This document shows positions 1,152-1,916 of a stretch of 64,000 bases of DNA, one piece after another. The stretch covers positions 124,001 through 188,000 of the forward strand of contig NZ_BOOW01000020.1 of assembly GCF_016863435.1 (NCBI RefSeq), read 5' to 3'. This DNA is from Sinosporangium siamense. Its GTDB lineage: Bacteria; Actinomycetota; Actinomycetes; Streptosporangiales; Streptosporangiaceae. Numbering within the stretch: position 1 is the first letter of the stretch; each line of letters opens with the position of its first letter. A model generated the notes under the pieces. It was not told where the DNA came from, made no database searches, and was given only the letters and a program-made list of their open reading frames with translations. The position numbers and the translations under genes are program-made.

Positions 1152-1234
1152 CTGCGTCACCTTTCTGGTAAGAGAGAAAATGATCTTGCTTTTTCACAAC
1201 CTCGCGGGTGGTCAAGGGACGCGGACAAACAAGA

Positions 1235-1298
1235 AGGCCGCGGATCCTGTCTGTGGATCCGCGGCCTGGAGGCTCTGCGCCGGTCAGGTTATGACCGG
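1235..1298 (-). promoter_or_regulatory. whiB7: Putative whiB7 leader attenuator: two consecutive hairpins
   Basis: On the minus strand, a 7-bp hairpin (CCGGTCA/TGACCGG, 1280-1298) contains the stop codon of the upstream ORF. It is followed by a perfect 13-bp stem (AGGCCGCGGATCC, 1235-1267, 7-nt loop) and then by TTCTTGTTTG, a good intrinsic terminator. whiB7 starts 84 bp downstream. Conditional termination in this leader is established in mycobacteria and Streptomyces. The sequence here allows it but cannot prove antitermination, and the hairpin could simply end the upstream gene. Confidence 0.65.
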
Positions 1299-1808
1299 TT
1301 GTCTCCAGGTGTTTGGATCACACTGCTGCGTGAGACGCAGCCCACCGTTGGCGGTCTGCTGGGTCAGGTTGCCGAATGCTTCAGCAAGGGCGGGCATGGC
1401 CTCGATGTCATCGCCCAGGAGGGCGTCGACGTCGGCGGGCCCCTCGGTCTGAGTGGGCGCTGCTTCGTAGGCGGCTTCGGCGAACGCTTGCGCATCGCGA
1501 CGACGCAGTCCTGCGACGGACATGCCAAGCTCAGACGTGGCGCCCAAACCGGTTGACACTGCTCCCGTCGACACGACCTCGCCGCCCAGCGCGACAAACT
1601 CCACGTGGCGGAGTTTGCCGAGGCCGGCTTGCCACCTGCCATCGCAGGAGGCGGGCAGAGCGATCGTGAGGGAAGGCGGTGCCTCCATGGCCGAATGCGC
1701 GGCAAGGCCGAGCATCCGAGCGTTGACGAAGACCGGCTTGGCGTTGGCCGGAGCACTCGGGCATGCGGAAGTGAGCAACGGCTTCACGGAAAGCGTGTGC
1801 TTGATCAC
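1284..1808 (-). CDS. Hypothetical 174-aa protein, or long leader ORF, upstream of whiB7
   Basis: GTG start at 1808 with a strong GGAGGT nine bases upstream. The product has no signal peptide, membrane segment or recognisable domain. Most codons end in G or C, as in a real gene, but the last dozen include CCA, AGA, CAA and ATA, which are rare in such genomes. The stop codon lies in a 7-bp hairpin directly before the whiB7 terminator, and another 7-bp hairpin (1325-1341) lies within the 3' end. It may be an independent gene, or the translated leader ORF that senses ribosome stalling for whiB7. Confidence 0.6.
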   Translation of the reverse strand: MIKHTLSVKPLLTSACPSAPANAKPVFVNARMLGLAAHSAMEAPPSLTIALPASCDGRWQAGLGKLRHVEFVALGGEVVSTGAVSTGLGATSELGMSVAGLRRRDAQAFAEAAYEAAPTQTEGPADVDALLGDDIEAMPALAEAFGNLTQQTANGGLRLTQQCDPNTWRQPVIT

Positions 1809-1916
1809 CGACTGCTCACCTCCATCTGAAGATCGTCGAGTGCCGACACCCGACTCGCTTGTTGAAGACCCTATTCCCCTCTCCGAAAGAGGGCAACATA
1901 TTTTCTACCTGCTGTT

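Follow-up and report, generated by a model that had tools for sequence, protein, structure and literature searches.

The whiB7 gene of Sinosporangium siamense is probably controlled by a transcription attenuator of the whiB7/wblC type that senses ribosomes. Its sensing track is unusually long and largely independent of sequence: an upstream open reading frame (uORF) of 174 codons that was identified in the window (the whole stretch of DNA analysed, 64,000 nucleotides). In the mechanism that we propose, WhiB7 would drive its own promoter, and the uORF of the leader RNA would be translated behind RNA polymerase. Ribosomes at the last ~15 codons and the stop would open the stop-codon hairpin and keep the antiterminator arm from pairing, allowing the terminator to form and leaving whiB7 off. 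When translation is slowed, stalled or unstarted anywhere in the first ~159 codons, through presumed inducers such as ribosome-targeting antibiotics, the end of the uORF would be left free; the free stop hairpin would zip into the antiterminator (GATCC..CCTGGAG with CTCCAGG..GGATC) before the 3′ arm of the terminator is made, switching whiB7 on, and the whiB7 product would then feed its own promoter. The long body of the uORF would serve as a track for translating ribosomes, with little constraint on the amino acids that it encodes; this length and this weak constraint are the special features of the leader.

Table 1. Features of the whiB7 locus, in the direction of transcription
Feature	Positions	Strand	Basis
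Acyl-CoA thioesterase gene	ends 1917	minus	domain matches
Predicted WhiB7/WblC recognition element GAAAAT, 3 nt 5′ of −35	1900..1905	minus	sequence, recurrence in relatives, GAAAWY consensus
Predicted promoter: −35 TTGCCC (1896-1891), 17-nt spacer, −10 TAGGGT (1873-1868)	1868..1896	minus	sequence, relatives
Short 5′ UTR hairpin GTCGGGTG-TCGG-CACTCGAC	1835..1854	minus	folding
uORF ribosome-binding site GGAGG, 10 nt before GTG	1819..1823	minus	sequence; similar sites in relatives
uORF, 174 codons, GTG 1808 start, TGA 1286-1284 stop	1284..1808	minus	ORF list and relatives
Hairpin AAACTCC..GGAGTTT inside uORF (codons KLRHVEF)	1596..1616	minus	largely kept in sister species
Antiterminator 5′ arm: GATCC (1319-1315) and CCTGGAG (1309-1303)	1303..1319	minus	predicted pairing; weaker in window's genus than in relatives
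Stop-codon hairpin CCGGTCA-TAACC-TGACCGG, between antiterminator arms	1280..1298	minus	sequence; outer-pair covariation in relatives
Antiterminator 3′ arm: CTCCAGG (1271-1265) and GGATC (1260-1256), overlaps terminator 5′ arm	1256..1271	minus	predicted pairing
Intrinsic terminator, 13 bp, 7-nt loop	1235..1267	minus	nearly invariant in 48 aligned leaders
T-rich terminator tail TCTTGTTTGT	1225..1234	minus	terminator scan
whiB7, ATG 1151-1149, 89 aa	882..1151	minus	Pfam Whib E 1.3e-14

Layout of the leader and its occurrence in the family

Only 11 nt separate the end of the acyl-CoA thioesterase gene from GAAAAT. The WblC/WhiB7 site is described as GAAAWY, 3 nt 5′ of the −35 element, in the available text of PMC7157823, and the GAAAAT/TTGCCC/TAGGGT arrangement fits this description; transcription is predicted to start at ~1861, and a GTAGAAAATATG TTGCCC-like pattern is also present in the leaders of relatives. 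The initial annotation named a promoter within 1235-1160, together with a lack of cotranscription with the ORF, as the arrangement that would speak against its reading; what we find is a predicted WhiB7-type promoter 5′ of the ORF. A consensus scan found no sigma-70-like promoter within 1100-2000, which says little because the promoter 5′ of the uORF escaped the same scan. Just past the predicted transcription start, the stem of the 5′ UTR hairpin differs in the sister species and is still paired there; similar hairpins occur in some other genera, with z < −2 in only 19 of 108 leaders and no significance overall.

The 174-residue ORF ahead of whiB7, with its stop inside a hairpin, was correctly recognized in the initial annotation (GTG 1808 to TGA 1286-1284; hairpin 1298-1280), and so was its strong ribosome-binding site (GGAGG, 1823-1819), which has similar counterparts 5′ of the uORFs of relatives. 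The codon bias, then called good, is merely moderate, with a GC3 of 0.746 in the uORF versus 0.843 in whiB7 and 0.906 and 0.939 in two upstream genes. Composition shuffles of the window's one sequence put the chance of an open frame this long at ~0.015. As to the source of the extra length, no direct repeats of at least 12 nt were found, and a search for a hint of Rho sites, as an excess of C over G, gave values for the uORF like those of the neighbouring genes (C 0.352, G 0.305). The strong hairpin at 1596-1616 may serve as a pause site or be the remnant of a peptide.

For whiB7 itself, ATG 1151-1149 is the most likely start, a small correction, 1160 being an in-frame upstream GTG. Its product is 94% identical to the copy of the sister species and at least 90% identical to many copies in the family, and has a weak AT-hook match near the C-terminus (AT_hook, 15.5 bits, under the cut-off of 17.4). 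Between the terminator and whiB7 (1225-1151, minus strand), the untranslated CCGCGTCCC..TGACC..ACCCGCGAGGTTG is, by eye, well kept in both species. On the other side of whiB7, at 637-843 on the minus strand, lies a small Arg-rich ORF (68 aa from ATG 843, C-terminal end RNVERASLRLRNALQRLV) without a Pfam match; it recurs in 34 of 108 leader loci (E ≤ 1e-3, window counted), of which just 67 extend 600 nt beyond the whiB7 start.

We surveyed the Streptosporangiaceae in the wide sense, Actinomadura included, with the window's genus sampled by two species, that of the window and one sister species. WhiB7 is present in 292 of 297 family genomes. All 69 leaders parsed from 70 fetched have the promoter pattern together with a uORF behind a ribosome-binding site, and all 22 parsed from 30 fetched in further genera have promoter and uORF; the layout is common to all 91 leaders parsed out of the 100 fetched, from Streptosporangiaceae genomes. 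The addition of named contigs gave 120 distinct leaders, 108 of which were kept as family-type and 12 set aside as outside the family, although one of the latter, L128 with 112 codons, carries the label of a Streptosporangiaceae MAG and might have been retained. The median uORF length in the 108 family-type leaders is 99 codons. Since the 106 distinct family-type leaders from beyond the window's genus span 72-129 codons (mean 99.5, SD 12.4) and the two of that genus have 174 and 202, the long uORF is the rule in the family and the window's genus is the extreme of the sample, which bears out the earlier remark that 174 codons is unusual. Lengths outside the family are less sure, because the uORF caller prefers ORFs with a strong ribosome-binding site and, up to 80 codons, those of greater length. 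The uORF stop lies 14-27 nt 5′ of the terminator arm in 107 of 108 leaders, and the spacers flanking the uORF on both sides fall in all three phases. Rfam at gathering thresholds gave no match in the window; a genome search with our attenuator model gave one true match, a second listed match being the opposite strand of the same terminator, and revealed no second attenuator copy.

The reading frame was examined without ORF calls, taking as start the first ATG or GTG 5-14 nt after the first GAGG past the predicted transcription start, and as anchor the last CCTGG before the terminator. This leaves out 28 of the 108 leaders (7 without GAGG, 7 without a correctly spaced start, 13 without CCTGG and 1 without a terminator). 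The C-terminal TGG is in phase with the start in 79 of the 80 testable leaders, at distances of 195-585 nt, L134 being the sole exception, and with one leader per genus in 27 of 27 testable (of 49). The TGG frame is open in all 80, the other two frames in 0 and 10. These counts argue that the uORF frame is kept across the family, and its translation is predicted. Indels in multiples of three amount to 68 of 167 inside and 16 of 129 outside the uORF with loose gap costs, a noisy count, and, in 19 close pairs aligned with strict gaps, to 18 of 18 inside and 1 of 34 outside; they carry no weight for the frame claim, because paired ORF calls force a net length that is a multiple of three.

The serious rival to a role for the length is neutral drift: the attenuator would work as described, and the extra length in the window's genus would be a tolerated insert that leaves sensitivity unaffected. 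We give this nearly an even chance. The middle of the uORF evolves at a dN/dS of ~1, the two species differ in length, and the modelled switch point (below) appears independent of length; on the other hand, both known species share the unusual length, and the frame has stayed open through ~40% divergence, with a neutral probability of 0.063 in a simulation starting from the window sequence. Neutral drift of length and our preferred explanation, an attenuator with a long sensing track, are compatible save for the role of length.

RNA structures at the uORF end

The uORF stop TGA begins the 3′ strand of the stop-codon hairpin. Most family leaders have a GGTCCGC-like stretch and CCTGGAGG 5′ of this hairpin and CCTCCAGGCCGCGGATCC or a close relative 3′ of it, so that the end of the uORF can pair with the 5′ arm of the terminator. 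The conserved C-terminal codons would form the antiterminator arm and the stop-codon hairpin. AGA, ATA, CAA and CCA codons are indeed present near the uORF end; the initial annotation listed them as rare codons, yet they appear better explained as RNA structure, since 92 of the 108 leaders have a TGG in the last 20 codons and 80 of these have AGA or AGG directly after the last one, placed in the antiterminator arm, and since the third base of the penultimate codon is A in 52 of 61 leaders with GTC before it, whether the residue is Ile, Thr or another. The 13-bp terminator with its T-rich tail was rightly described, except that it follows the stop after 16 nt and not 17.

For covariation, 69 of the 108 leaders were chosen for carrying the core of the hairpin together with CCTGG or CCCGG, giving 56 distinct rows, in which sequences and not events are counted. 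The three outermost pairs of the stop hairpin are changed on both sides in 19, 16 and 16 sequences, with the observed pairing reached by 0 of 500 shuffles, and its six outer pairs include 238 standard pairs (at most 207 in shuffles); the inner pairs are satisfied by construction, because of how the leaders were chosen. The antiterminator helix has 433 standard pairs against a shuffle maximum of 425, a count that includes noise from five of the 69 leaders in which the arm was misplaced (L017, L018, L035, L049 and L061).

In the window's genus the RGPxPW residues are lost, and pairing of GATCC with GGATC and of CCTGGAG with CTCCAGG is still possible. By predicted pairing of the terminator arm with upstream RNA, 17 of 26 leaders reach p ≤ 0.05 against synonymous shuffles and 21 of 26 against codon-order shuffles, with the window and its sister at 0.12 and 0.18 (synonymous) and 0.05 and 0.083 (codon order). 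Duplex energy, which proved too blunt as an antiterminator test in GC-rich sequence, gives p ≤ 0.05 in 40 of 106 leaders against synonymous shuffles and in 57 of 106 against codon order, neither leader of the window's genus being among them (window and sister, synonymous p 0.745 and 0.635, codon-order p 0.345 and 0.39). Arm swaps between genera cost on average just ~2 kcal/mol. The window's own antiterminator is the weakest link of the argument, being marginal against shuffles by probability and no better by duplex energy. For the earlier proposal of a whiB7 leader whose uORF senses translation stress, the attenuator anatomy (promoter, uORF, terminator) holds, with the antiterminator of the window as its marginal part.

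To locate the switch, we folded the leader 3′ of a ribosome placed at successive codons and halted before the 3′ arm of the terminator is made, defining the switch point as the first fall of more than 0.2 and not as full collapse. For the window, the predicted fraction of the terminator 5′ arm paired upstream is 0.66-0.68 at positions tried as far as codon 155, then 0.33 at codon 160, 0.54-0.61 at codons 163-170, and 0.30 and 0.21 at codons 172 and 174, with a similar profile in the sister species. In the relatives examined, the modelled pairing is ~0.7-1.0 before the drop and mostly below 0.35 after it, with up to 0.56 in an Actinomadura-type leader. In all 27 leaders modelled for this purpose, with uORFs of 87-202 codons, antiterminator pairing first falls when the ribosome stands 13-16 codons short of the stop (here, as in the pairing shuffles, the sample consisted of the two leaders of the window's genus and about every fourth other). 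Equilibrium folds of 10 leaders favour the terminator in nearly all states modelled, so that the switch would have to be kinetic, with the antiterminator forming first, or assisted. Furthermore, the long untranslated stretch left by an early stall could expose the RNA to Rho, opposing induction.

The weak statistics, the uneven pairing profile in both species and the predicted preference for the terminator at equilibrium would also suit a decayed antiterminator in the window's genus, the leader working otherwise, for example with ribosomes shielding the RNA from Rho, or giving little induction. We consider this unlikely: conservation of the uORF between the two species is highest in its last 25 codons (pS 0.14, pN 0.06; middle 0.46 and 0.46), and with the ribosome upstream the modelled 0.66-0.68 of arm bases would pair before the 3′ arm of the terminator appears.

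The uORF peptide

The dN/dS of the whole uORF is 0.95 (95% interval 0.66-1.33) between the window and its sister species. Streptosporangium has 0.94, a Microtetraspora/Planotetraspora-like group 0.87 and a mixed, mostly Actinomadura-like group 1.08; beyond the named contigs the group labels are our own, and misalignment brings the ratio of more divergent groups closer to 1. For comparison, whiB7 itself has a pS of 0.50 and a pN of 0.03 between the window and its sister. With dN/dS ~1 in four of five groups, the window's genus included, the uORF peptide appears mostly unconserved. It seems to be of little importance, translation of the track being what counts, and what is apparently kept in the window's genus is the open track. 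In Nonomuraea-type leaders (e.g., L005 and L019) the middle of the uORF has a dN/dS of 0.51 (0.37-0.69), unlike in the other groups; since the whole uORF there stands at 0.62 (0.47-0.81), the peptide is not wholly free in Nonomuraea, through some constraint on residues or codons, and may matter.

The initial annotation also allowed for a second role of the ORF as a protein gene, and a stronger form of this would make it a true protein gene that shares an operon with whiB7 and is followed by the attenuator by chance. A long frame that stays open behind a good ribosome-binding site, the value for the middle of the Nonomuraea uORFs, a loose AKLRQEK-like pattern in mid-uORF in 32 of 108 leaders, and the annotation of the M. 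abscessus whiB7 uORF as a gene (MAB_3509c, in the source as available) all point that way. Against it, dN/dS is 0.95 in the genus, far from the pattern of whiB7; a search of 60 relatives with the uORF product returned its own genome and the sister species only, and no hit in the other 106 leaders is better than E 6e-4; the product has no Pfam or NCBIfam match and no confident single-sequence fold (AlphaFold mean pLDDT 34, weak evidence when no alignment is given); and length varies freely, from 72 to 202 codons. We find no support for the second role, and the operon gene is highly improbable.

The conservation of the C-terminal peptide in relatives, which had been proposed as a check, is found in part: residues are kept across genera, as a SecM-like arrest peptide that stalls the ribosome near the end by a specific nascent-chain sequence would have it, but such a peptide is similarly improbable, because there is no clear excess of amino-acid over silent conservation in the C-terminal codons (dN/dS 0.73-1.31 in four groups, and 0.42 with a very wide interval, 0.01-1.88, in the window's genus), because the window's genus lacks RGPxPW yet keeps some pairing, and because ribosomes halted on the last codons are predicted to promote termination, not read-through.

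Known leaders and the meaning of uORF length

Transcription attenuators mediated by a uORF at whiB7/wblC were reportedly described in mycobacteria and Streptomyces by Burian and Thompson in 2018 and by Lee and colleagues in 2022, the latter being, it is said, the main study of these leaders. Leader ORFs of the SecM/VemP type, which have ~160-170 codons, resemble the uORF of the window as long leader ORFs before a regulated gene; they act by specific arrest sequences and export signals, whereas no such amino-acid constraint is seen in the window's uORF, and no export signal or membrane segment is evident by eye in its product.

As far as their available text goes, PMC11550727, PMC10727445 and PMC4128351 describe the whiB7/wblC attenuation scheme, and the window shares its GAAAWY promoter, predicted to be autoregulated, its uORF, its intrinsic terminator and whiB7 at the 3′ end, with a candidate antiterminator made from uORF and terminator sequences, but differs in the 174 codons and the long, weakly constrained body of its uORF. 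In the portions of the whiB7-leader literature at hand, which do not extend to the leader classes of Lee et al. 2022, there is no report of whiB7 uORFs of this length. We called uORFs of 44-52 codons in six of eight Mycobacterium leaders; these calls may be too short, because a uORF mutation in M. smegmatis is placed 390 bp upstream of whiB7 in the part of PMC13393426 available. A uORF proposed to act on stalling anywhere within it is also found in toiL, the multi-antibiotic uORF of E. coli topAI (PMC12121999, in part); toiL unmasks a ribosome-binding site, whereas the uORF of the window is proposed to control a terminator.

We tentatively suggest that the uORF could be a length-coded integrator of translation stress: a frame-locked, nearly sequence-free track whose length would set the sensitivity of whiB7 to sub-lethal stalling, with a fixed control zone of ~13-16 codons at its end. 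Lineages would adjust the threshold by gaining or losing codons, with the window's genus as the sensitive extreme. The matter bears on how one uORF can answer many classes of ribosome inhibitor; antibiotic-induced stalling within the whiB7 uORF is stated to be untested in the available text of PMC12121999. Were the uORF body indeed an unspecific track ending in a fixed control zone, a stall at any point 5′ of that zone would suffice. Such ORFs should not be taken for ordinary hypothetical proteins, and the natural leaders of 72 to 202 codons offer a ready-made series on length versus sensitivity.
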